The translations under genes were made by a program, and so were the position numbers. A stretch of DNA of 64,000 nt from Apteryx mantelli (lineage: Eukaryota > Chordata > Aves > Apterygiformes > Apterygidae), in the NCBI RefSeq assembly GCF_036417845.1, contig NC_090013.1, forward strand, positions 687,001 to 751,000, read 5' to 3'. Shown one piece after another: positions 26 through 63,609 of this stretch. Every line of letters starts with the position of its first letter. Within the stretch, counting starts at the first letter, position 1. The notes beneath the pieces were generated by a model that saw nothing but the letters and a program-made list of their open reading frames with translations, had not been told where the DNA came from and did no database searches.

Positions 26-2741
26 GCTCAAGCCCATCCAGAAGATGGAGGGCATGACCAACGGCGTGGCCGTGGGGCAGCAGCAGGCCGCGGGGCTCTC
101 CGACATCAGCACCCAGGTGCAGCAGTACCAGCAGTTCCTGGGTAAGGACCGGCCGCGGCGGAATACGGGATGCGGGATGCGGAGGTCGGAGTTGGGGGCC
201 CCCCCCCCTCATCGCCCCCATCCCCGCAGACGCCTCGCGGACCCTCGCCGACTTCGCCGAGCTCGACCTGCAGGGCAAGGCGCTGCCCGAGGCGGTGAGC
301 GCCGAGGACGTCAAGGCCTTCCAGGTGCTCTACCGCGAGCACTGCGAGGTAACGCGCTCCCGCGCCGCCGCTCCGCCGCTCCGGGAGGAAGAGGAGGGAA
401 GGGAAGGGAAGGGGGAGGCCACCGGAACTCACCCCACTGCCTCCCCGCTCAGGCCATCGTGGACGTGATGATAAACCTGCAGTTCACCCTGGTGGAGACC
501 TTGTGGAAGAGCTTCTGGAGGTACAACCTCAACCAGCCCAGCGAAGCCGCCCCCGTCGCCGTGTGAGTGGGGACCTTTCCCCAACCCCCCCCACCGCGCG
601 TGAGCCGCCCCGGGAAAGGGGGGGGGGGGGACAGGTGGTTTTGGGTCAGGGGAGCGTTTCCCGAGCGTCTCCCGCGCGTCCGCAGCCACGACGAAGCGGA
701 GAAGCGCCTGCCCAAGAGCTCCCTCGTCGTCCTCTCCAAGTACGAGCCGGTGCTGAAGTGGACGAAGGACTGCGACAACATGCTCTACCAGGGGCTGGTG
801 GAGATCCTCATCCCCGACGTCCTCCGGCCCATCCCCAGTGAGCGTCCGCCCGCTTCCCGCCTAGCCGGCACTGCTGCCGCCGCCGCTCCGGCGCCAGCCG
901 CCCGCCGCCGGCTCACCGTCCCCCCCTCCAATCCGCGCAGGTGCCTTGACGCAAGCGATCCGCAACTTCGCCAAGAGTTTGGAGAGCTGGTTAACGAACG
1001 CCATGATGAACATCCCCGAGGAGATGGTCCGCGTGAAGGTGAGGTCGGGATCGCCGCGGCGGCACGGACGGACGGACGGATGGAGGACGGGGGGGAAGCG
1101 GCGATGCTGACGCCCCCCCTCCGGCCCCCCCACCCCGCTCGCAGGTGGCGGCAGCAAGTGCCTTTGCCCAGACGCTGCGGCGCTACACCTCTCTCAACCA
1201 CCTGGCGCAGGCGGCGCGCGCCGTGCTCCAGAACACGGCCCAGATCAACCAGATGCTCAGCGACCTCAACCGCGTCGACTTCGCCAACGTCCAGGTAGCG
1301 CCGCCGGCCGTGCCCTTCCCCTACCGCCGTCGCCGCGCGGGGTTGGAGGTGACCGCGGCGGTGGGGGGTTTGTCTCTGACGGCAACGGTCCCTCCGGCGC
1401 GGCAGGAGCAGGCGTCGTGGGTGTGCCGCTGCGAGGACCGCGTGGTGCAGCGGCTGGAGCAGGACTTCAAGATGACGCTGCAGCAGCAGAACTCGCTGGA
1501 GCAGTGGGCCGCCTGGCTCGACGGCGTCGTCACCCAGGTCCTCAAGCCCTACCAGGGCAGCCACGGCTTCCCCAAGGCCGCCAAGCTCTTCCTCCTCAAG
1601 TGGTCCTTCTACAGGTGCGTGTCCGTGCGTCCGTCTGTGGTTTGGGGGGGGGGTCCCGGGGGTGGCGCCGCCGCCGCCGCGGTGACGTCCCCCCCCTCGT
1701 CCCCGTCTCCCGCAGCTCCATGGTCATCCGCGACCTCACCCTGCGCAGCGCCGCCAGCTTCGGCTCCTTCCACCTCATCCGGCTGCTCTACGACGAGTAC
1801 ATGTACTACCTGGTGGAGCACCGCGTGGCCCAGGCCAAGGGCGAGACCCCCATCGCCGTCATGGGCGAGGTGGGGGGCGCTGGGGGGCGCCGGGGGGGCA
1901 GCTGGGACCCCCCCTCCCCGGGGACGGGACGGGTTCACCCCTGGGATGGGGACTGGGCTCGTGGGGGGACCCCATGGGGCAGGGGGTGGCTCTGGGGAGG
2001 CTTCTGGGACCCCCTGGGACGGGGACTGGGCTTGTGGGGGCCCCCATGGGGCAGGGGGAGGTGCTGGGGGGCTCCTATGGGGCAGGGGGGGCACTGGGGG
2101 GCTTCTGGGACCCCCCCCCCCGGGGACAGGGACTGGCTGGGACCCCCCGGGATGGGGCTTGTGGGGGGCCACCGGGTGGGTTTGGGGGGGGGGGTCTGCT
2201 CCCCCCCCCCCCCTTGCAGGGCCTCACCCGCCTCCCGCCCGCAGTTCGCCAACCTGACGAGCTCCTTGAACTCCCTGGACCCCGACAAAGGTGAGACACC
2301 CCCCGCGCCCCCCCTCTCTCCCCACAGCCCCCCCCCCCACGGCAAAGACGGCACCACCGGGGCCCGTTAACGTGCTCGGCACAGCGCCACCCGCGGGCCT
2401 CCGGGATCGTTAACTCTGAAACCTACTCTGGGAGCGTTAACTCTGAAACCTACTCTGGAGCGTTAACTCTGAAACCTACTGACACGCACGATGCGGGTGT
2501 GTGGCTCGGGGGCAGCACAGGGTGGGGGGCGGCACTCGCGGTCACGAGGTTTTTTTGTTTCCTTTTTGTGCCCCCTCCCCGCGCAGACGAGGAGGAGGAG
2601 GAGGAGGAGGAGAGCGACGAGGAGATGCCGCAGGAGCTGTCGCTCGGCGCCGCCGAGGCCGCCGACGCCATGGAGCCCCCGGCCAAACTGGCGCGGGCCG
2701 ACTCGCGGGGCATCTTCGTGCAGGCCCTGCCCTCCAGCTAA
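26..2741 (+). CDS. RFX1: RFX1, 3' half (last ten coding exons; gene enters from the left edge)
   Basis: RFX1 is a winged-helix transcription factor that binds X-box DNA in MHC class II, ciliary and other promoters. Only the C-terminal 436 or so residues are here. The RFX DNA-binding domain lies upstream of the window, and what remains is the conserved B, C and extended dimerisation regions. Exons, all with GT-AG borders and compatible phases: 26-141, 230-348, 453-562, 686-837, 941-1038, 1145-1294, 1405-1614, 1716-1869, 2245-2290, 2587-2741. Recognisable stretches are FQVLYREHCEAIVDVM, HDEAEKRLPKSSLVVLSK, SLNHLAQAARAVLQNTAQIN and SSMVIRDLTLRSAASFGSFH, nearly identical to mammalian RFX1. The last exon has an acidic run (seven Glu, then SDEE) and ends in FVQALPSS followed by TAA, as in mammals. 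Introns are mostly 90-120 bp, with one of 375 bp and one of 296 bp. Family and paralogue assignment are secure. Confidence 0.97.
1870..2220. repeat. G-rich minisatellite in an RFX1 intron
   Basis: Degenerate repeats of a unit built on GGGACTGGGCTTGTGGGG and CCCATGGGGCAGGGGG fill the intron between the exons ending at 1869 and starting at 2245. G runs make the + strand quadruplex-prone. Confidence 0.75.
2398..2480. repeat. three-copy 25-bp tandem repeat in the last RFX1 intron
   Basis: The phrase GTTAACTCTGAAACCTACT occurs three times head to tail in the intron between the exons ending at 2290 and starting at 2587. It is AT-richer than its surroundings. Confidence 0.8.
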
Positions 2742-7200: not shown

Positions 7201-9171
7201 TAGGGGCGACGAGCAGGGCCACGCGGCCCGCGACAGGGGGATGGCGCGGCACGGCGCGGCGGGGCCCCCTCGCTCACCCGGGTAGGCCAGGGCCATGTCG
7301 CGGCAGCCGGCGCAGTGCATGACGGGCGGCATGGCCACGGCGCTGATGTAGATGTCGCGGTGGTTCTCGTCGCTCATCATCATCATGTTGACGAGGAGCC
7401 CGTTGGCGGAGCGCGTGCTGCCGGCGGGAGCCGCGGTTAAGGGCCGAGCCGCCCCGCGGGGGCCGGGGGGGGGGAGCGTCCGCGACCCCCCCACCACTGC
7501 CACCCCCACCGCCACCGCCGTCGCTCACTTGAAGCCGAAGACGATGACCTTGGAGGAGTCGCTGGGCCACTCGCACACCGTCAGGTACAGGTCGCTGTAG
7601 ATCTCCTCGTCCTGGAACAGGCGGACCTGGCGCACCTGCGGGAAGGAGGGAGGGAGTCAGGGAGTCGATCCGGCGGCGCCGGGGGCGGACGGAGCGAGGG
7701 GGGGGGGCGCGCACCAGCTTGAGCTTGCTGTGGACGTTGAACTCCCACCAGTAGAGGTGGTAGATGTAGAAGGAGAAGTCGTCGTCGCCGCTGCTGCTGG
7801 TGTAGGACAGGACGTAGCGGCCGCACTTGGAGAAGCCGAGGAAGATGTGCCTGCGGCGGGAGGCAGAGGCGCAGCTGCAGCGCGCCCGGGGGGGGGCCGG
7901 TGTTGCCCCCGGAGCCCCCGGCCCACGCGCCGGAGTGGGGGGGGTCGCGGCGGCACCTCACCCCGCACACAGGAAATGCTCGTCCACGATGTTCTTCAGG
8001 GAGACGCACACCCGCGGCGGCAGCTTGCGGAAGAGCCGGGGCGAGAGCTGCCCGCTGATCTGCGGAGGGGGGACGGCGCGTTTTTTTGGGGGGGGAGAAC
8101 CGAGGCGTCCCCAAATCCCCCCCCCTCGGATCCCTGCAGCCCCTTTCTGCCCCAAGCCCCCCGACTCCCCCCAGACCACCCTCTCCACATCACCCCCCTC
8201 CAGCCCCTCCCCGGCCTCCCACCATGCCGCCCCCCTCAAGCCCCCACCATGGCCCTGCCATGTCCCCCCCCCCAATTTGAGGGCTCCTGCCGTGCTCCCC
8301 CTGCCATACCCCCCCCAAATCCCCCTGCCATATCCCCCCCCACCTCAAGGCTCCCCTCAGACCCCCCCAAACTGCTGTGTCCCCCTCCCCCAGGGACTCC
8401 CCACCATGTCCTCTGCCTCAGGGACCCCTCAGGGCCCCCCCCCAGCACCATGTCCCCCCACCCCAAAGGCTCCCTTTAGGCCTCCCCCCTCCATGTCCCC
8501 TCCCCTTAGGGTCCCTCTCTTCACATCCCTCCCCACACAGGGCACCCCATAACCCTCCCCCCACCACACCCCCCCTCAGAGAGCCCCTCAGCGCCCCCCC
8601 CCCGCCATGACCCCCCCATCAGGGACCCCCATCATGTTCCCGTCCCCCCCCCCAGGGCTCCCCTCAAGCCTCCCCCAGTCATGTCCCCCCCAGGACCCCC
8701 CACAACCATGTCCCCCCCTACTTAGGGCTCTCCTTAGGCCTTCCCCTGCCATGACCCCCCTCTCAAGACTCCCCCCGCCATTCCCCCCCCCAGGGCTCCC
8801 CTCAGGCCTCCCCCCCTCCATGTCCCCCCCTCAGGGCCCCCCTCATCCTGATCCCCCCCTCAGGGCTCCCCCCAGCCGCGTTCTCCCCACCAAGGGACCC
8901 CTAGCATGTCCCCATCCCCTCAGGGCTCCCCTCAGGGTCCCCCCCGCCATGTTCCCCCCTCAGGGTCCCCCCCGCCATATCCCCCCCTCAGGGCTCCCCT
9001 CCACCCCCCCTCCCCCCGCGGCCCCCCGCTCACCTTGACGCGGTCGAGCTGCCTCACCACGTGCTCGCGGCGGCCCCGCGGGCCCGGTCCAGCCGAAGAC
9101 CCGCCCGCCGCCCCCGCCGGCCCCCGCTTCCCCCCCGGGCCGCCCCGCTCCGATTTCGAGCTGGGCGCCAT
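4275..9171 (-). CDS. DCAF15: DCAF15, DDB1- and CUL4-associated factor 15 (complete)
   Basis: Substrate receptor of the CUL4-DDB1-RBX1 ubiquitin ligase; in human it is the target of aryl sulfonamides that recruit RBM39. Thirteen coding exons, approximate: 9034-9171, 7963-8059, 7713-7850, 7530-7635, 7281-7420, 7001-7171, 6261-6915, 6034-6127, 5811-5942, 5638-5725, 5459-5567, 4425-4555, 4275-4331. The start gives MAPSSKSER, identical to mammalian DCAF15, and the end gives ERYTWIVL then TGA. Conserved blocks include [33 protein letters not shown]-type WD-like segments, [13 protein letters not shown] and [13 protein letters not shown]. The largest exon encodes the poorly conserved middle linker. 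Here it is expanded and has an acidic run of about 13 Glu/Asp after [18 protein letters not shown]. Predicted length is about 680 residues against 600 in human. Convergent with RFX1. Confidence 0.97.
4560..5458. repeat. about 71-bp minisatellite filling a DCAF15 intron
   Basis: About twelve degenerate copies of a unit containing AACACCCTCGCTGGGG, CAGCGCCCATCCCAGCACCC and GAGGTGACCCAG. Landmarks recur near 4605, 4674, 4787, 4858, 4929, 5000, 5070, 5142, 5214 and 5285. It fills the next-to-last intron almost completely. Confidence 0.85.
8060..9033. repeat. C-rich low-complexity first intron of DCAF15
   Basis: Nearly 1 kb of + strand pyrimidine-biased sequence made of imperfect repeats of CCCCTCAGGGCTCCCCTCA and CCACCATGTCCCCCC. 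No exon is visible. The transcribed (minus) strand is correspondingly G-rich. Confidence 0.8.
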
Positions 9172-19800: not shown

Positions 19801-22800
19801 GCCCCTGCCATTTGCCGGCGCCTTCTGAACTCGGGAACGGCTGCCCTTCCGGAGGCGCGCCGAAAGGTGAAGGCCGAGCGGGGAGCCGGACCCAGGAGCC
19901 CCCCCTTCCGGAGGGGTCCCCAGCCCAAGCGTCGGCGCTTCCAGCCAGGGCAGGTCGCAGCCGGACAAGGCGGCTCCTTCGTGGCACCGCCGGCTCGGAG
20001 CGGAGGCTCCCCGCAGCTCTTCGGCGGCGTTTCCCTTCTTACTGGGAGGAGGGGGCACGCTGCTCGGATCCACCGGCTGGCCCTTCCCCAAAGCTTCCAG
20101 CAGGGAGTCAAAGCTCTGCAAAAGCACCAGAGAAAGATCAGAATTCTCGCTTTTTTTTAATAAACATCTCATTGCACGTTTTGCAGACTGCTCCTGCCAG
20201 CCAGATTTACCCTTGTTTTACCACAAAAACCAAAACAGGGGGCGGTTTGCTTAATATTTCATGGGGAGGAGAAATGCCGGCCTCGCTGGCTGCCCCGGGA
20301 CGCCCCACGCACCTTGGCGACGCGGTAGTATTTCGTGGCCATCTCCAGGTTTCCCTGCTGCTTCGCGTGCAGGGCTGCCAGCTTGTATTCCCGCTGCCGG
20401 CCCTGCAGCAGCGCCGCGGCGCCGGCTCCGCCGGGACCTGGGGGGCAGAGCGGGCAGTCGCTAGGCTTGGGGCGGGCTTCCCCCCTGCCGCGAGGAGGGA
20501 CAAGGCAAGGCCTCACCTGAACGAGGAGGCGGCGAGGCAGAAACCGCGTTTTTCTCTGGAGAACCGACGGGCAAAGCAGGGCCGGGCAAGACCTGAGGCT
20601 TTGGGAGAACAGGAGGCGGCTGCGACTTCGGTAGGGGCTTGGGGGCAGAGGCAACAGGCGGCTGCGCAGGAGGCGGCGTCGGCGGCGAGCCGGGGCTTGC
20701 GGCGGGCGCGGAGCTGTGGGGGGACGACACTGCTGCCGTAGGGGACGGCTGCTGGGAGCTCGCGCTCTTCCCCAGAGCCACCGGCGGCGGGATTTCCTCC
20801 TCGTCGATCTTCTTTCCCTTCCTCACGGAGGCCAGCATGTCCTCTAGTGTCTGGAAAGAAGGCGCGCGCAGAGAAAACCATCATCAGCTTCCGATCTTTC
20901 TCCATCTCGGCTGTGAGAAGAGAAACTTTGGAATTTGCCAGGGCTGCAGCAAAGCCCCCGAGGTGGGAAAAACCCAGAATCTGCTTAAAAACAACAGCCA
21001 ACCGTGGCCTGAAACATGGCGAAGGGGCTCCCTGATCGGGAAGCCGTTCCCTAACTGCGCAAGTTCCTCACTTTCCCATATTTCCGGAGAACGGAGAGCA
21101 CCTTGAGCCGCGTACCTGCTTTGGAAGAGCAGTGCCACGCTCCCCCAGCCTGCGGGACAAAATCCGAGGGAAAGAGGGAGGTCTGCCCTTGACAGCACAG
21201 AGGTGCACGAAAAACTTTAACGTGGCAGAAAAGACTTCGGCAAGGTAGAAATTGGCCCCCCAGAAAAACCCCAAACAAAACAGGCTGGTGCTCAAAATTA
21301 AAAACCAAAAGTCCTCAGACTCTTCGCAGGGTTTAAGCGACCACAAGGAATCAGGAATGTGAGGCTGTGTTTTAGCCAAAAGCCAAGCCTGCAGCAGGAT
21401 AAGGCGATCAGGGCCATGCCGGAGACCTCTGTGCGTAACGGGGTCTCGGAGACAGCTCCAGCACAGGCCGCGGCATCCACTCGTTCCTCAGGTTACGTTA
21501 TCGCCCACAATTAGGCACCGAAATCAGAACGACACGATTTTCCAAGAAGTCTGAGTAAATTCTACTTCCGTTTGAAGCAGCGGGAGCTGGAAGCGCTCAC
21601 CACCGCGGGGGAAAAAACCTGCCTTAACGCAGATGTAAGCGCAAACTCCTGGAGCGTGGAAACGCTGGCCGTGCTCAGCGGTGAACTCAGCACCAAGCGG
21701 GTTTCGCTTCATTAGAGATTAAGCACGAAAGTCTTGTCTCCGGCGCCCGCGGGAGCGGCGGTTCGCGAGCCGCCGGCCGGCAGGGCGCTCTTTGGGGCTC
21801 ACCTTGAGGCCTCTCTCGTAGCGGCGCACTTTGGAGCCGTCTCCGGCCTGCCTGGCGTTGGCGACGGCCGTTCTGTACATGTCCGCCCTCTCCGCCAGCA
21901 CGGACTCGACGCTGCCGAGCTCGGGAGGCGCTTCGCCCACCTGCAGGAGCCCAAAGCAGGAGGCGGCTGAGCTACGGGACAACGGCAGAGCATCCGGGCT
22001 TCCTCGCGGCCGATAGCCGCTCGGATCCGGGGCTCGGAGCGGACGCAGCTGCTCGGCCCTTTGCTTTTTTTACAAGCTCGGGTCGAAACAGCTCTAGCGC
22101 AGCTGCAGTATCTGATCTCCGTCTCCTTGTTTTCCACCATGCTTTTGCGCAACGGATTCGCGTTTACTCGCCAGGGAGATCCAACAGACGCCGCTGCGGA
22201 CGTAGAAGTGCTCCGACACCAGGAGCAGCAGAGGAAGCAAAGCGGAAAGACGAGTTTCCTACCTTTGCAGCCGGTGCGGGGGCATCTGCACTCTCCTCCT
22301 CTTCGCCAAGCACTTCCTGGAGCTCTGCCTACGAGCAGGAATTCCGTTAATGATAAACCGGGACCAAAAATCTCTTTCGGAGAAAATACGTGCCATTAAT
22401 CCCAAAGCGGGTAGAGCAAGGAAAAGCTAATACGGGGGAGGGATATAAGGGCTAAGGAACAGCCAGGGCACAGGGATGCTCTCCCCAAACCCCTCCCAAA
22501 TCCCGCGCAGGACACCGATCGGCGGGGAACAAACCGCCAGACCTCCCGTAGCGCCCAGAGCCCTTTATACCATGAGATCATCTTCGTCTTCCAGATCTTC
22601 CTCATCGTCTCCCTCCTCTTCATCCAGGTCCTTCATGCAGAGAGCAGCCATTCTCTCGATCGCTTCCATTGGCAAGGGCGCTGGAGAGGGAGAAGTCCGG
22701 TGTTTGCGTCCCGCAACCGCTTCCTACCCCAGCTTAGGCCCGTGCCCGGGAAGCCGAGGAAAGCCAGGCCGGGCAGCGAGTCCGGCCCGGAGGGACCCGC

Positions 22801-34135: not shown

Positions 34136-35070
34136 GAAAAAAAACAGGAAAAAAAAAAAAAAAATCCCGTTGCAGATGTTCAAGCGGGTGAAATTAAGAA
34201 AAAGGAAAAAAAAAATCCCGTTGCAGATGTTCAAGCGGGTGAGTTTGAAAAAAAAAAAACAGAAAAAAAATCCCGTTGCAGATGTTCAAGCGGGTGAGTT
34301 AAGAAAACAAAACAAAACAAAACCCATCACAGATGCTCGGGGCAGGAGTTTAAAAAAAAAAAGAATCCCATCAAATCCCGTTGCAGATGCTCAAGGGGAG
34401 CAGGTGAGTTAAAAAAAGAAAAAATCCCATAAAACCCCATTGCAGGCGATCGGGGGGGTTAAAAAAAAGTAAAATCCCGTAAAATCCCATTGCAGGCGCT
34501 CAGGGGGGCAAGTTAAAAAAAAACCCAACTCATTGCAGGCGCTCGCGGGGGGTGAGTTAAAAGAGAAAAATCCCATAAAAATCCCATTGCAGGCGCTCGG
34601 GGGGGTTAAAAAAAGAAGAATCCCATAAAACCCCATTGCAGGCGCTCGGGGGGGGTGAGTTAAAAGAGAAAAATCCCATAAAAACCCCATTGCAGGCGCT
34701 CGGGGGGGGGGGCGAGTTAAAAAGAAGAAAAACTCATTGCAGGCGCTCGGGAGGGGTGAGTTAAAAAAGAAAAAATCCCATAAAACCCCATTGCGGACAC
34801 TCAGGGGGGGCGAGTTTAAAAAAACCAACAACTCATTGCAGGCGCTCGGGGGGGTGAGTTAAAAAAGAAAAATCCCATAAAACCCCATTGCGGACACTCG
34901 GGGGGGCGAGTTAAAAAAACCCCAAACAACTCATTGCAGGCCCTCGGGGGGGGGATTTAAAAAAAAAAGAAAAAACATCTCATTAAACCCCATTGCCGAT
35001 GCTCGGGGGGGGGGTTAAAAAAAAAAAGAAAACTCATTAAACCCCATTGCCGATGCTCGGGGGGTGCGGA
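34136..35070. repeat. about 51-bp minisatellite at the 3' end of NANOS3
   Basis: About 18 copies of a unit combining a (G)AGTTAAAAAA(G)AAAAA block, AATCCCATAAAACCCC, and ATTGCAGGCGCTCGGGGGG. The TTGCAG-type landmark recurs near 34170, 34221, 34276, 34381, 34440, 34489, 34532, 34587, 34636, 34688, 34737, 34833, 34934 and 35046. Alternating A-rich and G-rich blocks are unlike any other repeat in the window. Confidence 0.92.
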
Positions 35071-35642
35071 GGGGGGGGCGCGGAGGCTCCCACCCGTGGG
35101 GCGCGGGGCGGGGGGGGGTCCCTAGCGGTGTCGCGGCTGGAAGCGTCGCGGCACCGCCATGCGCCGTCCCTGGGGCGCGGCGCCCCCCCCGACCCCCCCC
35201 CCCTGCCCCTGCCCCTGCCCCTGCCCCTGCCCTTGCCGCCCCCCCCCGCGGCGGCGGTGGAGGTGAAGCAGCGGTAAACGGAGATGTAGCCGGGGCGCGT
35301 GAGCGGGCAGAAGCGCCGCGTGTGCGCGCCGTCCTCCGTGGCCCCGCACTGCGGACACACGTAGTTGCGCAGCACCGGGCACTCGACGCGGCCGCCGGGG
35401 CCGCGCAGGTTGTGCGCCGTGTAGATGTGCCGCGCTTCGCCGTTCTGCTTGCAGAAAACGCACAGCGACGGCCGCGGCGCCGGAGCCCGAGCGGCCGCCC
35501 GCAGCCCCGCCAGCACCGCCGCCAGGCCCAGGTAGTCCCGCCACATGTCGAAAACGGGGAAAGGCTCCGTGCGCGACGCCCCGCAAAAGCCCCTCGCACC
35601 CGCCGCTCTTGCGCCGACGCCCCGGGGCCGCCCCGTCTGCAT
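35037..35642 (-). CDS. NANOS3: NANOS3, nanos C2HC-type zinc finger 3
   Basis: NANOS proteins bind RNA with Pumilio and recruit CCR4-NOT; NANOS3 maintains primordial germ cells. The tandem CCHC zinc fingers are intact. Finger one, starting CVFCKQNGEARHIYTAH, has C-x2-C-x12-H-x10-C; finger two, CPQCGATEDGAHTRRFC, has C-x2-C-x7-H-x4-C. The motif FDMWRDYLGLA matches human NANOS3 FDLWTDYLGLA, the NOT1-interacting motif. The Met inside it (codon at 35544-35546) would drop the key Phe, so I place the start at the next in-frame Met upstream, 35642 (201 residues). Starting at 35546 gives 169, close to human 173, and 35726 gives 229. The C-terminal third is Gly/Arg/Pro-rich, and its last residues and stop come from the flanking minisatellite. 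A short spliced second exon, as in human, is possible. Tail-to-tail with BRME1. Confidence 0.9.
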   Translation of the reverse strand: MQTGRPRGVGARAAGARGFCGASRTEPFPVFDMWRDYLGLAAVLAGLRAAARAPAPRPSLCVFCKQNGEARHIYTAHNLRGPGGRVECPVLRNYVCPQCGATEDGAHTRRFCPLTRPGYISVYRCFTSTAAAGGGGKGRGRGRGRGRGGGSGGAPRPRDGAWRCRDASSRDTARDPPPPRAPRVGASAPPPPHPPSIGNGV

Positions 35643-35729
35643 CGCGCCGCGCCGCGCCGTCGCCGCCACCGCCGCCACCGTCGCCACCCGGCGCCTTCGG
35701 CGGGAGCGCTGGGAAAAAGCACCCAAACC

Positions 35730-37515
35730 CAGCAGGGGAAAAAAAAAAAAGGAAAGGAGGGGAGGGGGGAAGGGCCCCGCCCCCGCCCTGCCCCCGCCCT
35801 GCCCTGCCCTGCCCCACTGACAGCTTCTGCCCCCAAAGGCCGATGCCCCCCCTCCCCTCCCCTCCCTCCCTCCCTCCTCCCTCCCTCCTCCTCCTCCTCC
35901 TCCAGGACCTGCCCCTTCTGGCCAGCGCCGCCGCGCGCAGCTCGGACACGCGGGTTTGGGGGAGTTTAGGGGTTTTTTTTGTTGTTGTTTTTTTTGTTTT
36001 TTTGCTACATCCCATCAGTGCAAATAGTCCCCCGCGGTCGCAGGGTCGAGGGGGAAAAAGGGGGCGAAGCCGCGGCTGCTGGCGGCCTCGCTCGCCGTCT
36101 GCAGGGACCCCGAATTGTGTCGTGTCCCCCCCCCCCCGCCAAGAGGCATTTCCCCCCCCCCCGCTCAACGTCCCCCAGGGCCTCGTCTCCTTCCCTGCCC
36201 TCAGGTTTCCTCCGGCCGCGGCCACCCGGCCGGCGGCGGCTCCCTGCGGGAAGCCCCGGCGCCTCGGCGCCTCGCCGCCGGCATCGGTTTTGGGGGCCGC
36301 GAGCAGGAGATTGGGTCGAGGAGCGTCGCTTTTGCGGGGAGCGGCGCGGACGTTCCCTTCTGGAAAAGGGGCGCGTCGTCGTCGCGGGGCCAAATCCCGG
36401 CCCCGGGCGCGACGCGGACTCACGTGTCAAGCCCTGGACACGCGGCTCCCACCAGCCTGCGCGGCGCCGTCGGGAGTTTCGGCCGCGCGATCCGGTTTAC
36501 AGGGCCGGCCGAGCCGCCGAGGGCTCCTCGCTCCCAGCCTGCGCGATGGGAACTCCTCAGCATCCTCCCGGCTCCGCACGCCGCTCCGGCCGGGCGCGCT
36601 GCTCCCCAGTGCAGCCCGTCTTGGAAAAACCTGCAATAACCCTCGACGAGGTGTCAAAGCGGCTAAAAAAAGAGAGTTTTTGAGGACAGTGACAAGAGCA
36701 CAGTTAAAGTTCTTCCTAGCAGAGGAACGAGGATCCCAAAGGCCGTTCCGTCCCATCCCATCCCGTCCCATCCCGTTCCCTCCGCGTCCTCCGCTGCTTC
36801 CTCCCTCCTGCTTCAGCCTTTTCCCCGGCCAAAGCACTTGCTAATGGGCCGCAAAGAGCAGCCGATATTTGAGGAACAATAGCGGAGTTTAACCCCCAGT
36901 TTAACCTTTTGGGCTCAATTCCAGGAGAACCGGTGCAAAGGTTTAACTCCCACCAAAAAATAAATAAATCGATAAAGGAAAAGCCAAGCGTGCAACATTC
37001 CTTCCAGGGTCCTTGTTTTTAAAGGAAAGGTCACGTTCACCTCTCGGCTACCTCGGAAAGCCCCTGCGCTTCCCAGGCATCGCCCGCGGCGCGGATCCAG
37101 CGAGCCAAGACGCCCGGTAATTCGGACTCCTCGCACGCCGGGAGGAGCAGCAGCGCTGTCTATCCGCCCCTTCGGAGCGGAACGGAGCTTCCCGCGCGGA
37201 AGTTATTCCGAAGAAAAGCACCCGCGTCCCCGAATAACCCCGATCGCTCCAGACTGAGGGGGTTTCTCATCCGGAGCGGCTGCACTGAGGGCCGTGCTGG
37301 AAAACGGCAGCAATCCCTCTTCCGTAACGGAAGCTCCAGTTACTCCCTCACCTGGAGGAGCCGTAGAATTAACTGCCCAAACGGCACTAAATCCCAGCTA
37401 AAGCAGCCGAACTAACGCGTTCGGCCAAGGAGGAGCGATGGCGTTTCGGAAGCACGGGAAACGCTCGGAGAAGCCTCCGGAGGGTCGTTCCGAGCCCCGA
37501 GCTGAGCCGCTCCTC
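35730..37515. other. NANOS3 upstream region, no gene recognised
   Basis: Contains a pyrimidine mirror-type tract (TCCC/TCC repeats, 35845-35905), a T-rich run (35970-36003), a CpG-rich stretch to 36,640 and ordinary sequence after that. If miR-181c and NANOS3 share a primary transcript, this is its intervening part. No coding signal is seen. Confidence 0.5.
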
Positions 37516-37600
37516 AGGGCCCCGGGGTCCACTCAACGGTCGATGGTTTAACCTCAGCGACAAAACTCACCGACAGCGTTGAATGTTCACCGAGACCTTT
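37515..37600 (-). ncRNA. MIR181C: miR-181c hairpin
   Basis: On the minus strand the 5' arm (37587 down to 37565, 23 nt) begins AACATTCAACGCTGTCGG and is identical to mature miR-181a-5p. The 3' arm (37548 down to 37527, 22 nt) begins AACCATCGACCGTTGAGTGG and is identical to human miR-181c-3p. The loop between them is only 16 nt, and the flank after the 3' arm (CCC...GGGCC) also resembles the human miR-181c precursor. Position and strand (upstream of NANOS3, same strand) match human MIR181C. Mammalian miR-181c-5p lacks one G present here. The partner miR-181d is not found. Confidence 0.95.
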
Positions 37601-53460: not shown

Positions 53461-53929
53461 AGCGGGCGCCCCGTGCGCCCCTCCGTGCAGCGCGCCGGGC
53501 GCGTGCGTCCCTGCGCCTCCCCGCAGCCCTGCGCACACCCGGGATGCGCGGCTGGAAAGCCCCTGCCCGCCGCCGTCACCGGGGCCCCGCGGCGCTGCCA
53601 CCTCCCGCCCGGCACCGCGGCCCGGGGGAGCAGCGGCAGGAGCCAGCGGGTGCATCGGGCCGGGGCCGGGGCTGGGATGGGGACGGAATGGGGACGGGGA
53701 CGAGGACCAGGAGGGAGCCCCGGGACCTGGCTGCGTCTCCCCGTGGGCACGGGCAGGCGGGGGGTGGTGGGACGTGGGGGACCCGTGGGGACCCAGGGGG
53801 ACGTGGGGACATGAGGACACGAGGCCAGGCAGGACAGACCCATGGGGACCTGTGGGCACAAGGGTCCGGGCAGGAGGGACATGGGGACCTATAGGGACAC
53901 CAGGACACGGGGCTGGGGCAGGAGGGACC

Positions 53930-55485
53930 CATGGGGACGTGGGGACACCTGGGGCCATGGCTGTGCCGTGGGGACCCCCGGAGCCGTGGGGACACTTCAA
54001 GCCGTGGGGATATCCGGAGCTGTGGGGACCCCCGGAGCCACGGAGACACCTGGAGCTGCGGGGACACCCGGAGCTGTGGCCGTGCTGTGGGGACATCCAG
54101 TGCCATGGGGACACCCGGAGCCGCAGGGACACCCGGAGCCATGGCCGTGCCACAGGGATCCCAGTGCCATGGGGATCCCGGTGCCGCAGGGATCCCAGTG
54201 CTGCAGGGATCCTGGTGCTGTGGGGATCCCGGTGCTGTGGGGATCCTGGTGCCGCGAGGATCCCAGTACCGCAGGGACCCCAGAGCAGCAGGGACACCTG
54301 GAGCCATGGCCATGCCACAGGGATCCCGGTGCCAGGGGGATCCCGGTGCCATGGGAATCCTGGTGCCGTGGGGAACCCGGAGTTGCGGGGACACCTGGAG
54401 CCATGGCCGTGCCACGGGGATCCCAGTGCTGCAGGGATCCTGGTGCTGTGGGGATCCCGGTGCTGTGGGGATCCCGGTGCCATGGGGATCCCGGTGCCGT
54501 GGGGATCCCGGAGCTGTGGGGATCCCGGTGCCGTGGGGATCCCGGTGCCATGGGGATCCCAGTGATGCGGGGATCCCAGTGCCGTGGGGATCCCGGTGCC
54601 GTGGGGATCCCGGAGCCGCGGGGATCCCAGTGATGCGGGGATCCCAGTGCCGTGGGGATCCCGGTGCCGTGGGGATCCCAGTGATGCGGGGATCCCGGTG
54701 CCGTGGGGATCCCGGTGCCGTGGGGATCCCAGTGATGCGGGGATCCCGGTGCCGTGGGGATCCCGGTGCCGTGGGGATCCCAGTGATGCGGGGATCCCGG
54801 TGCCGTGGGGATCCCGGAGCCGTGGGGATCCCAGTGCCGTGGGGATCCCGGTGCCGCGGGGATCCCGGAGCGGGGGGATCCCGGTGCCGTGGGGATCCCG
54901 GTGCCATGGGGATCCCAGTGATGCGGGGATCCCAGTGCCGTGGGGATCCCGGTGCCGTGGGGATCCCGGAGCCGCGGGGATCCCAGTGATGCGGGGATCC
55001 CAGTGATGCGGGGATCCCGGTGCCGTGGGGATCCCAGAGCCGCGGGGATCCCAGTGCCGTGGGGATCCCGGTGCCGCGGGGATCCCGGAGCGGGGGGATC
55101 CCGGTGCCGTGGGGATCCCGGAGCCGCGGGGATCCCGGAGCTGTGGGGATCCCGGTGCCGTGGGGATCCCGGTGCCATGGGGATCCCAGTGATGCGGGGA
55201 TCCCAGTGCCATGGGGATCCCGGTGCCGTGGGGATCCTGGTGCTGCGGGGATCCCGGTGCCGTGGGGATCCCAGTGATGCGGGGATCCCAGTGCCGTGGG
55301 GATCCCGGTGCCGTGGGGATCCCGGTGCTGCGGGGATCCCGGAGCGGGGGGATCCCGGTGCCGTGGGGATCCCGGTGCTGCGGGGATCCCAGTGCCGTGG
55401 GGATCCCGGAGCGGGGGGATCCCGGTGCCGTGGGGATCCCGGAGCCGCGGGGATCCCGGAGCGGGGGGATGCCGGCGGTGGGGGC
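53930..55485. repeat. 17-bp minisatellite (GGGGATCCCGGTGCCGT), about 85 copies
   Basis: Before about 54,150 the units are degenerate (GGGGACACCCGGAGCC). From there to 55,485 they are nearly identical 17-mers, each with GGATCC. Because 17 is not a multiple of three, every frame passes through all phases and yields the same 17-residue repeat (GIPVPWGSRCRGDPGAV), so open frames arise in all + frames. Confidence 0.97.
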
Positions 55486-55734
55486 GCGCGGGCGCATTGT
55501 TCCTCCCCGGCTATTGTTTATCCCGCTCGGAGCGCGGAGGAAACCCAAAACCTCCCAGTAATAATTGTATTTAGGAACTTCCAAGCATCTCCACGGAGAC
55601 GGCGGTGACGGCAGCGCGGCCGGGCCGGATCCAGCGCCGGGAATGTCGCCTTAACCCCCGGCAGGCCGCGCGCCGCAGCCCCGGCCGGGCCCGGTCCGAC
55701 TCCATGGGGTCCCTGGGCGCCCGGGAACCGGAGC

Positions 55735-56660
55735 CTCCGGAGCCGACCCCGCAGGGTCCCCGGATCCCCGGGAATGGGCCCCTCCGGCGCCTCCCCCACG
55801 GGATCCCCAGGAACGGGACCCTCTGACGCCTCCCCCTGCGGGATCCCTGGGAATGGGACCCTCCAGCGCCCCCCCTGTGGGGTCCCCAGATCCCCGGGAA
55901 TGGGCCCCTCCGGTGCCTCCCCTGTGGGGTCCCTGGATCCCGGGGAACAGGACCCTCCAGTGCCTTCCCCATGGGACCCCCGGGAATGGGACCCTCCGGC
56001 GCCTCCCCTGCAAGATCCCCAGATCCCCAGGAACGGGATCCTCCAGCACCTCTCCCCCACGGGATCCCCGGGAAGGGGCCCCTCCAGCGCCTCCCCCACG
56101 GGTCCCCGGATCTCTGGGAATGGGACACTCCGGCGCCTCCCCTGCGGGATCCCCAGATCCCCGGGAACGGGATCCTCCAGCACCTCCTCCGCAGGGTCCC
56201 TGGGAACGGGCCCCTCCAGCACCTCTCCCCCACGGGATCCCCGGATCCCCAGGAACGGGCCCCTCCAGCGCCTCCCCCACGGGTCCCCGGATCCCTGGGA
56301 ATGGGACACTCCGGCGCCTCCCCTGCAGGATCCCCAGATCCCCGGGAATGGGACCCTCCGGTGCCTCCCCTGCAGGATCCCCAGGAACGGGACCCTCTGG
56401 CGCCTCCCCCGCAGCATCCCCGGATCCCCGGGAACAGGCCCCTCCGGCGCCTCCCCACGGGGTCCCCGGATCCCTGGGAACGGGCCCCTCCAGCACCTCT
56501 CCCCCACGGGATCCCCGGATCCCCGGGAATGGGCCCCTCCAGCGCCTCCCCTGCGGGATCCCCAGGAACGGGCCCCTCTGGCGCCTCCCCCGCAGGATCC
56601 CCAGATCCCCGGGAACGGGCCCCTCCGGCGCCTCCCCACGGGGTCCCCGGCCCACCCGGA
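55735..56660. repeat. 39-bp minisatellite with 12-bp expansions
   Basis: About 21 units of the type GGGCCCCTCCGGCGCCTCCC followed by CCACGGGATCCCCAGGAA. Some are lengthened by an extra GATCCCCGGATCC. Period lengths of 39 and 51 keep frames open on both strands. Confidence 0.92.
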
Positions 56661-56984
56661 TCCCGCCGGGCGCGGGGATTTGGGAGCGCGCAGGGCCGGG
56701 CCGGCCGGAGGCGCCGCGCGAGGCCTCGCCGCCCTGGAACAACCACAGTGACGCGCTGCGGTTTCGCCGCTTCCGACGCCGAGCAGTGTTTAATGTCTGT
56801 GTGTGCGGCATCGCCATGGAGATCCCGGCCGGGCCGCCCGGCGTCCGCCCGCTCCGCTCCGCTCCGCCCGGCCGCCAGCCCCGACGTCACCCGCCGCCGG
56901 CCCCGGCATCCCGGGGCTTCCCCGGAGCCCGGCCGGCCGAGCGCGGGCCTCGGCGTCGCCCGCATTCCCGGCGGCCCCTCCGTC

Positions 56985-57475
56985 CCCAGCATTGCATCCA
57001 TCCCCACGATTGCATCCGTCCCCCAGCATTGCCTCCATTCCCGGCATCGGCTCTGTCCCCGGCATTGCCTCCATTCCCACCATTGCCTCCATTCCCGGCA
57101 TCGCCTCTGTCCCTGGCATTGCATCCATTCCTGCCATCACCTCCACTCCCAGCATCGCCTCTGTCCCTTGGCATCGTCTCCGTCGCCGGCATTGCATCCG
57201 TCCCCGGCATTGCATCCGTCCCCTCCATTGCCTCCGTCCCCCGTCATTGCCTCCATTCCCGGCGTTGCCTCTGTCCCCAGTATCGCCTCCGTCCCCGGCA
57301 TTGCATCCATCCCAGCCATCATCTCCATTCCCCGCCACCACCTCCGTCCCCCAGCATTGCCTCCATCCCCGGCACACATGTCCCTGCCATCGCCTCCGTC
57401 CCCGGCACACATGTCCCTGCCATCGCCTCTGTCCCCGGCACACGTGTCCCTGCCATCGCCTCCATCCCAAGCTCC
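56985..57475. repeat. 18-bp minisatellite (ATTGCCTCCATTCCCGGC family)
   Basis: About 26 copies of an 18-bp unit. The array ends in three copies of a longer variant with GGCACACATGTCCCTGCC. Confidence 0.92.
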
Positions 57476-57499
57476 CACCCCACAGCGCTCAGGACTCCC

Positions 57500-58215
57500 T
57501 CACTGCGACGCTCGGGCTGCCCACGCTGTGGGAACAGGGTGTTTGCACCTCGTGGGGCTCGGCATTCCCACGTCACGGGGTTGGGGACACCCGTGCCCTG
57601 GGGACAGGGCTCCCACACCGTGGGGACGGGGCGTTTGCACCTCCCGGGGCTCAGCGTTCCCCTGCTGCGGGCACGGGACGCCCACGCCGTGGGGACTGGG
57701 ATTTGCACCTCCTGGGGCTCGGCATTCCTGCGCCACGGGGTTGGGACACCCGTGCCGTGGGGACAGGGCGTTTGCACCTCGTGGGGCTCGGCATTCCCCT
57801 GCTGTGGGCACGGGACGCCCACGCCGTGGGGACAGGGGTTTGCACGCCGGGGGGGCCGGGGGGCTCCCACGTCGTGGTCACGGGGGGGGTTGCACATCGT
57901 GGGCACGGGGGGTTCCCACGCCGGGGGGGGCCGGGGCATTTGCACGTCGCAGGGCCGGGGGGTTTGCGCATTTGGGGGGGCGACGGCTTGCGCGTCGCGG
58001 GCGTTTGGGGGCGTTTGCACACGCCGGGGCCGGGGCGAGGGGTTCCCACGCGGCGGGGTTCCCACGCGGCGGGGTTCCCACGCCGGGGGGGGCCGGGGCA
58101 TTTGCACGTCGCAGGGCCGGGGTGTTTGCGCATTCGGGGGACGACGGCTTGCGCGTCGCGGGCGTTTGGGGGCGTTTGCACACGCCGGGGCCGGGGCGAG
58201 GGGCTGCCACGCGGC
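57500..58215. repeat. higher-order repeat with TTTGCACCTCGTGGGGCTCG and a 162-bp duplication
   Basis: 57,530-57,860 holds four or five irregular units of about 75-130 bp containing GTTTGCACCTCGTGGGGCTC. The block starting near 57,931 is repeated almost exactly at 58,093, 162 bp later. Confidence 0.8.
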
Positions 58216-59159
58216 GGGGGTGCCACGCGCGGGGCCCGGGCGCTGCCCGGCGGCCCCGAAAGGGTGCGGAGGCGGGCGCGGCGCGGCGCGGCCTGGCCCC
58301 TCCTCTCGGCGCCCGGCCGCGGCCCTCGCGGCGCTCCCGGGGCGGAGCGAAGCTTTTAAAAAGCGTTTCCCTTCTTGGAGTAAAAAGTCAGCGACTTGGG
58401 GAGCCGCCGCGGCGCCGCGGGCCGCCCGGGCAGCACCGGCCCCAGCACCGGCCCCGGCCCCGGCCCCGGCCCCGGCGCCGCCGGTGAGTAGCGGCCCCGC
58501 GCAGCGCCGCCGCCGCCGCCGCCCGCGAGCGTGGGAAAAGGCGGCGGGAAATTCCCGGGGGAGCCGGGACCGGGCCGGAGCGCCGGGACGTCGGGGCGGC
58601 GGCCGCGGCGCCGAGGCTCCGGCGGGGCCCGCGGACGGGAGCGGCGAGTCGGGGCGCGGGCCGGGAGCGCCCACGCGTGTCCGCGCCGCGGGGAGGGGGA
58701 GCCGCGGTAAAACGGGGGGGGGGGAGTTATGGAGGGAGGGAGGGAGGGAGGGAGAGGGGGGGGCCTGGCCGCCGCTGCCGCCGCGCGTGATTCATCCTTT
58801 CCCCCCGCGGCGCTGCGTGTGCGGGCGGGCGCCGACGGGGCGGCCCTGCCTCGCTCCGCCTCGGCCCGGCCGCCGCCCACCGCTGTCCCGAGTTGGCCCG
58901 GGCTCAGCTCGCCGGCGGGGGAGGGAGGGGGGGGAAAAAGGGAGGAAAACTCGCCGCGCGGGGGGGGTCCGGACGCCGCCCCCCCCCCTCCTCCGCGCCC
59001 CACGGAGGGGAGCGCCGGCTGTGTGTGGGGGGGCGATGGGCTTCCCCCCCCCCTCCCCTCGTTCGCGCGTGGGCGCCGCCGCGCGGGGCTGAGCCCCGAC
59101 ACGCTCGTGCCGTGCCAGGGAGGCCGCGCCGCTCGCGGGGGCTGGCGAACGCGAGCCCC

Positions 59160-59575: not shown

Positions 59576-60049
59576 CGGGCACCGGCGCTGCGCTCCCACT
59601 CGGTCACGGCTTCCCAACGTGCCAACGCTTCCCGTCGCTGACTCTCTGCCAAGCCGGGTCCTCGGCGGAGTCCCCGGCACGAGGCCGCTGTGTCCATGGT
59701 CTATCCGGCTCCGTCCGCATCCCACCCTGCTCCAGCAGCTCTTCCCTGCGTGGGACCTCTCCCGCCGGGGGCCCAGGCGTCCGGGTGGGTGGCGTGCAGG
59801 CGGCCGCCGGGCTGTTTGCGGCGCCGCCGCCGCCGCGCGCTGTTTATCCCTCGGTTTTGGGCCCTTTCCACCCGTTTCCCTTTGAAGTGCGCCCGTTGCC
59901 GGAGCGACGGTGATGTCAGGCCGGGGCGGGCGCCGGCGCTCCCGCATGGCGACGCCAGGCCCCACGCGGCCCCGTGACACGTTTCTTCCAGGAACTGCCC
60001 GGGCGCCGGGACGCCTGGGTCCCCCGGCGCGGCCGCTGCCACCGCCGCG

Positions 60050-60430
60050 TGTGCGGGGATCCGGGGACGGCGGCGAGGGCAGGGGGCCGTCGCCCTCCCC
60101 ACGGCTCCCAGGGACGGGGACACGCGGGTGCAGGGCGATTTGGGGACAGTGGTCCCGTCCCCGTCCCGCAGCTCCCAGCCAGGGGCATGGGAGAGCGCGG
60201 GAAACTGGGGACAGCGATGAGGGCAGGGGGGTCCCGTCCCTGTCCCCATCCCCACCCGCTTCCCTGTGGCTCCTGGGGCTGGGGACAGGCGCGTGCACAG
60301 GAATTTGGGGACAGAAGCAAGGACAGGGTGTCCCATCCCCGTTCCCGTGGCTCCCCGGGATGGGGCCGCGCACGTGCAGGGGGATTTGGGGACAGGGGTC
60401 CCGTCCCCGTCCCCAGCCGCGCTGGCGGGA
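60050..60430. repeat. irregular repeat of TTTGGGGACAG and GTCCCGTCCCCGTCCC
   Basis: Four degenerate units of about 80-100 bp, each with a CCCGTCCCCGTCCC-type tract, a GGCTCCCGGGGATGGGG-type phrase and GTGCAGGGGATTTGGGGACA. They lie in the presumed host-transcript intron. Confidence 0.75.
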
Positions 60431-61287
60431 GCCACGGCACGTTTCTCGCGGAAATGACTTCGCGCTCGGCCGTTTCCTCCCAGCCGATGGGAAAAGTGGG
60501 AGCTGGGTCCCGCCCGGGCCGCGGGCCGCCGCGGGAATCGGGCCGAACGCCGGCTCCGCGTGGCCGGGGAGCGTGTGGATGACACCAGCACAGCATGTGT
60601 CCCGCCGGGCGACGCCTCCGTCCCCGCGGGCCGGGAAGGCACCGGCAGCCCAGGGGGGAGCACGGGCACCGCCGCGGTGACGCCGCTGCTACGTGCCGCG
60701 GCCGGAGCGGTGCTGGCGGGCAGGGCTGGTGGCGGATGCGGATGCGGCCGGGGAGGCCCCGGTGCTGCCCGGCTTGCACGGACGTCCCACCTTGCACGGC
60801 CGCCCGCGCTCCCCCGCGCGCCGTCACCGCGAGGCCTCACGTGTCCCCTCCGCGTGGCACCACCCGGCCGTGGCACGTGCCAGCGCGGTCCCGCGCCGTG
60901 ACTCAGCCCCGGCGCGCACACGCCCTGCCGCGCCGGCGCGCAGCCCCCCTGCCCCCCCTGCCCCCCCCCCCACCGGCACGTGGCCGGGCCGGGTTATTTT
61001 TGCCGGCGCCGCTGGCACCCTACAAGGGGCCGCTGGAGCGGGCAGCGGCCGCGCCGTGTCCCGGCCTGACTCCGGCGCCGGGAAGCGGGGCCAAACCTCC
61101 CCCTCCCCGGGAAGGGGAACCCGGCCAGGGCTGGGCCCAGGCGTCCGGGCCCCGGTGGCGGCGGGGACCCCGGGCTCGGCTGCCGGTGGCCTCGGGGCCG
61201 GGCGAAGGGAGCTGCCGACGGGTGCCAGCGCCGGACCCCACCCTGCCAAGCCGCCGCTTCCGGCCCCAATCTCGGCGCGCTCCGACG

Positions 61288-61297
61288 CTATTTTTAG
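61288..61297. promoter_or_regulatory. MEF2-type site upstream of miR-23a
   Basis: CTATTTTTAG matches the MEF2 consensus exactly and is one of few AT-rich words in this region, about 400 bp before the miR-23a hairpin. The motif is seen directly; its use is inferred. Confidence 0.35.
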
Positions 61298-61687
61298 GGC
61301 CGGCACGGAGCCGAGACGGCTGCTGCCGGCCGGGGGGGGGGGACGACGACACGCCGGGGCCGGCGGGACCCTGCTCACGGCACCTTCCTTTCCCCAGGTG
61401 ACACCGGGAGACCCCGACGCCGGACACCAGGAGCCGCCGGAGAGCCGGACGCCGTCCCGCCAAGGCCGCAGTGCGAGCTGGGGGCCCAGGCGTCCGGGCC
61501 GCCCCACGGGGGCGCGGGCGGGCGGGCGGTGGCTGCGGTTTGCCGGGCGGCTGTCGCTAGCGGCTTCGAGGAAACGGCGTCAGCCGGCCCGGCAGGCAGC
61601 GAGACGCTTCCGCGCCGGGTCCCGCCGCCCCCCGGCCCCCCGCGCCGCCCCCCCGCGCTGCCACCGCTGCTGCCGCTGCCTGCTGCC

Positions 61688-61765
61688 GCCCGCCGGGGTT
61701 CCTGGCGATGCGATTTTTTTACTCTGCTGCCCAAAATCACATTGCCAGGGATTTCCAACGGGCGC
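61688..61765 (+). ncRNA. MIR23A: miR-23a hairpin
   Basis: The 3' arm (61736-61756, 21 nt), which begins ATCACATTGCCAGGGATT, is identical to miR-23a-3p. The 5' arm (61695-61716) differs from human miR-23a-5p at two positions (G to C at positions 12 and 17). The loop holds a T run (61714-61720). Strand and order, with miR-27a and miR-24-2 following on the same strand, match the mammalian cluster. The 3' terminal C rather than ACC supports 23a over 23b. Confidence 0.96.
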
Positions 61766-61814
61766 CAGCTCCCACGACGAGGACGGAGCCCCCCGAGGGG
61801 GCCGGGGACGGATG

Positions 61815-62040
61815 GGGGGGGACATGGGCAGGATAGGGGGGCCGGATGGGGGGGATGCAGGGACCGTCCGTGCCCGGAGCAGGGGGACAGACAGGGGGAC
61901 ATGGGGACCGGACCGGCCATGCCCGGAGCAGGGGGACAGATGGGGGGATGTGGGGACTGGCTGTGCCCGGAGCAGGGGGCTGGATGGGGGGACGTGGGGA
62001 CCAGCCGTGCCCGGAGCAGGGGGACAGACGGACGGACAGC
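61815..62040. repeat. 44-49-bp minisatellite between miR-23a and miR-27a
   Basis: The phrase TGCCCGGAGCAGGGGGACAG starts near 61871, 61920, 61964 and 62008, separated by GGGGGGACGTGGGGACC-type sequence. It widens the spacing between two hairpins that are close together in mammals. Confidence 0.93.
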
Positions 62041-62082
62041 CGGCCGGCCGGGGCGGGGGGCAGCGGGCGCCAGGCCCCGGGG

Positions 62083-62160
62083 CGCAGGGCTTAGCCCACC
62101 TGTGAACAGCGTTTGCCGCCGCCTCCTGTTCACAGTGGCTAAGTTCCGCTCCCCGGCGCC
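62083..62160 (+). ncRNA. MIR27A: miR-27a hairpin
   Basis: The 3' arm (62129-62149, 21 nt), beginning TTCACAGTGGCTAAGTTC and ending CGC, is identical to miR-27a-3p. miR-27b ends in TGC, so this is the 27a paralogue. The 5' arm starts AGGGCTTAGC at 62086, as in human miR-27a-5p, then diverges (CCACCTGTGAACA). Confidence 0.96.
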
Positions 62161-62249
62161 CTGCCGGCGGCACGGCACGGCATGGCACGGCGTGGCGCAG
62201 CGCAGCGGGGCCCCCCGGACGCCGGGGCCCCCGGCCGCCGGGGCCCGCT

Positions 62250-62332
62250 CTGGGCGCTGCCTCCCGTGCCTACTGAGCTGATACGCAGTTGCTTTGCCTA
62301 AACTGGCTCAGTTCAGCAGGAACAGGAGTCTG
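62250..62332 (+). ncRNA. MIR24-2: miR-24-2 hairpin
   Basis: The 3' arm (62304-62325, 22 nt), beginning TGGCTCAGTTCAGCAGGAAC, is identical to miR-24-3p. The 5' arm (62267-62288) starts TGCCTACTGAGCTGATACG, differing from human miR-24-2-5p (TGCCTACTGAGCTGAAACA) at two of the first 19 positions. The lower stem CTGCCTCCCG is also shared with human. Confidence 0.97.
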
Positions 62333-62854
62333 GCCCCGCGCGCCGGCACGGGCGGCACCGCCGGCGGGGAGCCCGGACACCTGGGCCCCGGCCGCCGGCC
62401 TTCTCCCCTCCGCTGCGGGTGGCGACGGTGAGTGGAAGCGGGCGGGAGCCGGGAGCCCGGACGCCTGGGCCCCGCGGCAGGAGCTGGGCCCGGCGAGGGA
62501 ATCGGTTCCTCATTCGCGCGCGGGGCGGGGAGGAAACCCCCCTCCACGGGCGCCCGGCCGGGCCCGAGGGACCGTTGGGAGACCGCAGGCGTCCCGGGGC
62601 TTGTGGGAGCGCGGAGCCGCAGCCGGGCCCGGCCGGCCCTGCCTCGGTTTCCCCACGGCGCCGTGGGAGAGGGGCCGGCGGCCCGGCCCTGCGCCCCGGG
62701 GCCGGCAAGCCGCGGCAGCGCCCGCCCGCCCGGCCTGGCGCCGCCGCAGGGAGGCTCCCGGCGCCCCGGCAAGTCGGGGCGTCGCAGGCAATTAGGGGAT
62801 TACGGGGAGCCGGTCGCGCCCGGGCTGAGTCACCGCGGCCCCCGCGCTCACGCG

Positions 62855-63330
62855 GCCAGGGCCCAGGCGTCCGGGCCGCCCCTCGCGCCCCCCTGCCCGC
62901 CCAGCGCTGCGGCGAGGGCCCAGGCGTCCGGGCCGCCCCATTCCGACCCTCGCGCCCCCCTGCCCGCCCAGCGCTGCGGCGAGGGCCCAGGCGTCCGGGC
63001 CGCCCCATTCCGCCCCTCGCGCCCCCCTGCCCGCCCAGCGCTGCGGCGAGGGCCCAGGCGTTCGGGCCGCCCCATTCCGCCCCTCGCGCCCCCCTGCCCG
63101 CCCAGTGCTGCGGCGAGGGCCCAGGCGTCCGGGCCGCCCCTCGCGCCCCCCTGCCCGCCCAGCGCTGCGGCGAGGGCCCAGGCGTCCGGGCCGCCCTGTT
63201 CCGACCCTCGCGCCCCCCTGCCCGCCCAGCGCTGCGGCGAGGGCCCAGGCGTCCGGGCCGCTGTCTCCCCCCCTGCTCTAACCGCTAGGCCCCACTGCGC
63301 TCGGCAGAGGACCCAGGCGTCCGGGCACCC
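62855..63330. repeat. 57/67-bp repeat with core CCCAGGCGTCCGGGC, related to a sauropsid tRNA-like repeat
   Basis: Seven units carry CAGGCGTCCGGGCC near 62864, 62921, 62988, 63055, 63122, 63179 and 63248, separated by GCGCCCCCCTGCCCGCCCAG. After the last, the minus strand reads CCTAGCGGTTAGAGCAGGG (63274-63292), followed by another core copy at 63,310. Such a pairing, GTCTAGTGGTTAGAGCAGG plus GACTCCTGGGTTC in its less CpG-rich form, is familiar from turtle, crocodile and bird DNA and resembles the A-box and T-arm of a tRNA. The family link is from memory of such sequences. Confidence 0.7.
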
Positions 63331-63383
63331 CGCCCAGCCCCCGCCAGCAGCGGAGGCGCCTCCTCCATTAAACTTTTTCCCAA

Positions 63384-63389
63384 AATAAA
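63384..63389 (+). terminator. polyadenylation signal, probably of the miR-23a~27a~24-2 primary transcript
   Basis: AATAAA in a sudden AT-rich patch (63,365-63,440), the first on the + strand after miR-24. A TGTCACAG/G-rich stretch follows. Assignment to the host transcript rests on strand and distance. Confidence 0.55.
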
Positions 63390-63609
63390 GCTGAGAAATG
63401 AGTCTATAAAATGCAGGAAATTTCAGGGAATTTCCCTGATGTCACAGCGAGGAGGGGGGGCTGAGGGAGGGACGCCCCAGGGAGGGCGGGGCTTAATGAG
63501 TGGCCCCGCCCACTCTTGGAGGGCGGGGCCCACGCGGCGGCCTCACCCAGGCGGGGCGGGACTTGCCCACGTGGCCCTAGGGCGCGGCGCCTTTAAGAAG
63601 CTCGGTCCC

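Follow-up and report, generated by a model that had tools for sequence, protein, structure and literature searches.

The miR-23a~27a~24-2 microRNA cluster of Apteryx mantelli lies in a 64,000-nucleotide stretch of DNA, which was analysed as a whole and is referred to here as the window (contig NC_090013.1, positions 687,001 to 751,000 of the forward strand), and which belongs to a GC-rich contig of 1,333,486 bp. The precursors mir-23, mir-27 and mir-24 (3/3) are complete at 61687-62328 of the plus strand, score above their Rfam gathering scores and follow each other in cluster order on a single strand, as full-length members of an intact cluster, in agreement with the original prediction. The features of the cluster and its surroundings are presented in Table 1.

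Table 1. Positions of the cluster, its spacers and the neighbouring features, in coordinates of the window.
Feature	Position	Strand	Evidence
RFX-family exons, RFX1 by position	567..2254	+	Pfam PF25340, two reading frames
DCAF15 exon (WD40)	7277..7957	-	Pfam PF14939, E 8e-20
CC2D1-family exons (DM14 domain), CC2D1A by position	20779..21898	-	Pfam PF21528, 2/3 frames
NANOS-family reading frame, NANOS3 by position	35040..36014	-	Pfam PF05741, E 6.7e-23; zinc finger ~35304-35462
mir-181 hairpin, oriented away from the miR-23a cluster	37516..37598	-	Rfam RF00076, 83.2 bits
MEF2 consensus box CTATTTTTAG, candidate site	61288..61297	+	~390 nt upstream of the cluster
Candidate 3' and 5' splice sites of a putative 1,030-nt exon around the cluster	61386..62433	+	AG 61396-61397, GT 62428; predicted exon 61398-62427
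pri-miR-23a hairpin	61687..61764	+	Rfam RF00642, 70.0 bits; local MFE -39.0 kcal/mol; 3p arm 61736-61756
23a-27a spacer	61765..62076	+	312 nt, 77% G+C, G-rich on the + strand; G4Hunter mean 1.03
Minisatellite in the 23a-27a spacer	61849..62031	+	TRF score 216, period 44, 4.0 copies, 77% matches
pri-miR-27a hairpin	62077..62156	+	Rfam RF00644, 76.9 bits; 3p arm 62129-62149; 5p arm diverged
27a to 24-2 spacer	62157..62258	+	102 nt by Rfam bounds
pri-miR-24-2 hairpin	62259..62328	+	Rfam RF00178, 82.6 bits; 3p arm 62304-62325
Second minisatellite, a short way 3' of the cluster	62852..63261	+	TRF score 688

The arms of the hairpins were compared with the known mature microRNA sequences. Against these references the 3p arms have no mismatch with miR-23a-3p, miR-27a-3p and miR-24-3p, so their proposed identity with the mammalian mature microRNAs stands for all three, and they have one mismatch with each of the paralog forms 23b-3p and 27b-3p. 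The 5p arm of 23a has two mismatches with 23a-5p and six with 23b-5p, and the 5p arm of 24-2 has two with 24-2-5p and five with 24-1-5p. The mir-27 5p arm is a poor fit to both references, with six ungapped mismatches to 27b-5p and, for 27a-5p, nothing at this arm that beats an 8-mismatch match located elsewhere. With the exception of this arm, the arms are of the "a" type rather than of the "b" paralog. Mature miR-24-3p is not assignable to a single cluster. The hairpins have 23-31 predicted pairs each, and CNNC motifs are found at +16 after all three 3p arms, which is weak evidence because such motifs are expected often in sequence this rich in C. Neither the 27a arm nor the 24 arm has an exact match in the viral contigs scanned.

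The genes around the cluster are arranged in the order RFX(+), DCAF15(-), CC2D1(-), NANOS(-), mir-181(-), cluster(+), IF-2B(-) and Yju2(-), where the last two are Pfam domains of the minus strand that lie some 5 to 9 kb beyond the cluster. The human order at 19p13, which is RFX1, DCAF15, CC2D1A, NANOS3, MIR181C/D, MIR23A, ZSWIM4, MRI1 and YJU2B, gives the neighbours their exact paralog names in Table 1, and in mammals mir-181 is divergent from the cluster as well. The gene neighbourhood is thus conserved with respect to this order, and since it fits the mammalian miR-23a locus, the cluster is most likely the ortholog of mammalian miR-23a~27a~24-2, with which it shares the hairpin order, the 3p arms and the neighbours, including the divergent mir-181 (human chr19p13). 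The human locus differs in having ZSWIM4 next to the cluster, as the SWIM domain of this protein was not found by Pfam on the minus strand of C36:751001-771000, the 20 kb that follow the window and thus start beyond its last 1.7 kb. A loss of ZSWIM4 next to the cluster is possible.

These neighbours come from Pfam scans in which 3/10 reading frames of the window matched in one set and 1/10 in another, and from read-through frames of the minus strand, of which 0/3 matched at 9001-18500 and 2/3 at 18001-28000. After the window the scans were confined to minus strands, where 3/3 frames matched in the first stretch, which also holds one further weak DUF2462 match below the cut-off, and 0/3 in the second. 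The mir-181 hairpin occupies the position of 181c, and its 5p arm is identical to miR-181a-5p and not to 181c; a second mir-181 on the same strand, which would be a 181d, is absent within 36600-38400.

Candidate sites for transcription and splicing are also found near the hairpins. The MEF2 box is perfect and lies in very GC-rich sequence, and when 60000-62000 is shuffled 1000 times, a box of this kind arises once. The available text of PMC11130849 describes MEF2C as acting on the upstream region of the cluster via a -1830 element and not via -776, so the position of the box disagrees with that report. Each of the two candidate splice sites, which would bracket the cluster, is the sole strict match of its kind in 60-64 kb on both strands, and shuffled sequence gives 0.30 (3') and 0.18 (5') strict matches per 4 kb of one strand, so the pair may be due to chance. 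An A+T-rich island at 63370-63450, which lies in very GC-rich sequence, contains an AATAAA (63384) and an NF-kB-like palindrome, and is a candidate for a 3' end or a conserved element.

The spacer between the 23a and 27a hairpins, predicted to be about 320 bp long and largely made of a 44-49-bp repeat, has a single array with a TRF score above 50. The distances between the starts of its units are 49, 44 and 44, and a 15-nt core, which starts at 61872, 61921, 61965 and 62009, is identical in all four units. The array fills 59% of the spacer (183/312 nt), which makes "largely" a fair description, and it is separated by 84 nt from the hairpin of 23a and by 45 nt from that of 27a. The highest TRF score among 500 dinucleotide shuffles of the spacer is 80, compared with 216 for the real sequence. 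The second spacer, between 27a and 24-2, is short as predicted, and its length is 102 nt by Rfam bounds rather than about 90 bp. In the literature on bird microRNA clusters, minisatellites and microchromosomes, no repeat in the miR-23a cluster appears among the matches listed.

Two further readings of the spacer were considered and rejected. There is no signal that the hairpins gave rise to the repeat unit, whose similarity to them is equalled in 183, 140 and 170 out of 200 shuffles. An 18-nt near-repeat that flanks the spacer (61756 and 62061) was matched at first by none of 300 local shuffles, and was dropped because 52 of 100 shuffles of the region match as well once the array is removed. 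Around the cluster, the 15-mer CCCAGGCGTCCGGGC occurs ten times at 61136-63312 (nine on the plus strand and one on the minus strand), six times within the second minisatellite and four times outside it, and could be an interspersed unit akin to this minisatellite.

An assembly artefact, in the array itself or in its copy number, has a very slim probability. Regions of this kind are hard to sequence and technical artefacts are possible according to the text available of PMC12954441, and N occurs in three of eight sampled stretches of the host contig; against this, the units are 69-84% identical in pairwise comparison, where a duplication error would give exact copies, and among the 18 matches to the cluster region in its own assembly (1.50 Gb, 408 contigs) only one is full length.

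It is about equally improbable that the G-rich spacer, as RNA or DNA, forms a G-quadruplex or another structured element that regulates the transcript. Its mean G4Hunter value is at the 97th percentile (signed) of the 312-bp segments of the window and it holds two canonical G4 motifs, but 254 of 300 shuffled spacers contain at least as many motifs, and such motifs are common in the window, with 102 on the plus strand and 105 on the minus strand. Both spacer motifs fall within 61797-61862, a segment that for the most part precedes the periodic array. A G-quadruplex enrichment of the spacer was therefore rejected as not above shuffles.

The array was also compared with its chromosome, where strong arrays, defined by a TRF score of at least 200, are abundant. 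They make up 20.3% of the window, and 24.6% of its 312-bp intervals contain at least 100 bp of strong array, a density from which a repeat within the 23a-27a gap is expected. The spacer array is the second shortest of the 25 strong arrays of the window, whose median is 410 bp. Very dense arrays are seen at 49763-58234, between mir-181 and the miR-23a cluster, with 65% strong-array coverage at 48-56 kb. Along the host contig, 7/8 ten-kb stretches taken by place have strong arrays, which cover 5-30% of bases; three of the eight adjoin or nearly adjoin the window, and the eighth, which is half N, is the one that has none. The 11 stretches that were likewise chosen by place on nine other contigs have no strong array. 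Strong arrays are present in 5/7 loci of other contigs picked by similarity to a GC-rich query, which is a biased sample, and dense arrays are therefore not confined to the host contig.

The tiny, GC-rich and dot-like contig, which is dense in local tandem arrays and may be a whole chromosome, has a published counterpart in chicken. Hron et al. (2026; PMC12954441), in the portion of the text available, describe "sequence stuttering", the presence of such imperfect local arrays on the dot chromosomes of chicken, where 86% of introns vary in length, compared with 11% of those on macrochromosomes and 18% of those on the remaining microchromosomes. The spacer array fits this description. It shares with the published stuttering, as far as that text goes, the imperfect tandem blocks of tens of bases, the tiny GC-rich chromosome and the sparing of the functional element, here the hairpins, and it differs in its place, since the published cases are in introns of protein genes and this one separates hairpins within a microRNA cluster. 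Neither "miRNA" nor "non-coding" is used in the main text of PMC12954441. Copies of adjacent functional sequence, which belong to the exon form of stuttering, are not found in the array; the exon form is one subtype, seen in a subset of genes, and the form restricted to introns or spacers needs no such copies. By analogy with the chicken introns, the length of the spacer array likely varies between individuals.

A second comparison is given by the paralog 23b-27b-24-1 cluster, which has the same three families in the same order and is found in the same genome at C44:32929364-32930210, on an 88-Mb contig. Its gaps are 162 and 462 nt, its spacers have about 40% G+C and no array, and its hairpins have pairing probabilities of 0.951, 0.907 and 0.934. 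A gap wider than 312 nt therefore occurs naturally within the family and in the same genome. In human the 23a-27a gap is about 70 nt, compared with 312 nt with the array in Apteryx.

The original prediction also proposed that the number of repeat units alters Drosha processing or co-processing of the cluster, with an effect that differs between individuals. The pairing probabilities of the hairpins in predicted folds with 0, 1, 2, 3, 5, 8 and 12 full units are 0.888-0.911 for 23a, 0.921-0.926 for 27a and 0.774-0.875 for 24-2, and show no trend with the number of units from 0 to 12, in models that ignore proteins and co-transcription. With a 150-nt pairing limit, 24-2 has a pairing of 0.41-0.42 at all copy numbers and of 0.93 in a construct with a 69-nt spacer, and 23a has in this construct 0.67 with the limit and 0.82 without it; these values are unexplained. 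Shuffled spacers (n=20) give mean pairings of 0.83, 0.84 and 0.69, somewhat below the real spacer, which indicates that the sequence of the spacer has some influence in the folding model.

The proposed effect on Drosha is unsupported, because pairing has no trend and the gap of the paralog is wider yet free of repeats, and overall we consider it quite unlikely. Two published observations speak for it, each in the part of the source available: the length of a VNTR in MIR137HG is associated with splice forms from which miR-137 is lost (PMC6692358), and XPO5 binds between hairpins in closely spaced clusters, and not in a cluster with hairpins more than 600 nt apart (PMC7160132), so spacing can matter in principle. 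A third paper argues in the other direction, as cluster assistance concerns suboptimal hairpins in the text of PMC13041536 available, and the three hairpins, which exceed their Rfam thresholds and have the predicted pairs given above, appear ordinary and unlike the kind that needs such assistance. The human MIR137 VNTR and the spacer array have in common a tandem repeat near a pre-miRNA in the primary transcript; in human the length polymorphism is documented and the effect occurs by alternative splicing, according to the same portion of PMC6692358. If the array had any effect, splicing would probably be the more plausible route. Stuttering inside a conserved polycistronic pri-miRNA might produce a natural allelic spacing series, through which splicing, or the amount of miR-23a relative to miR-27a/24-2, would differ from bird to bird; to this reading, which is made by analogy, we give a similarly low probability.

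The locus is thus very probably an ortholog of mammalian miR-23a~27a~24-2, placed on a dot-like microchromosome, with a local and probably neutral minisatellite in its spacer. The hairpins, the array, the gene order, the chromosome context and the predicted folding are established here. The structure of the hairpins and their family suggest that the cluster would be transcribed as one pri-miRNA, which the Microprocessor would cut into three ordinary hairpins. The minisatellite, which is known from one assembly, would have arisen by a tandem expansion confined to the spacer DNA, in the manner of stuttering, and leaves the hairpins intact. It would most likely be neutral for processing, and the repeat is probably a typical product of its chromosome.

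The expression of the microRNAs of the cluster in birds is already in print. Small RNAs were sequenced from facial neural crest of chicken, duck and quail, and the miR-23a-27a-24-2 cluster is among the microRNAs with higher levels in the neural crest of duck than in that of the other two birds, in the available text of PMC3327661. The same text suggests that most of 35 newly predicted avian orthologs fall in gaps of the chicken assembly, and PMC4378963, as far as available, attributes missing avian ncRNAs to problems in the assembly of microchromosomes, although its main text names none of mir-23, 24, 27 and 181. Both sources agree with the original prediction that loci of this type are often missing from short-read bird assemblies, and the cluster lies in sequence of the sort that is lacking in older ones. 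The miR-23a cluster, together with the neighbours it has in mammals, is thereby placed on a dot-like chromosome rich in repeats, a location that helps to explain its possible absence from bird annotations and older assemblies. The sequence gives no sign that the array alters microRNA production. If the array varies, it would offer a natural test of the importance of hairpin spacing inside a polycistronic pri-miRNA.
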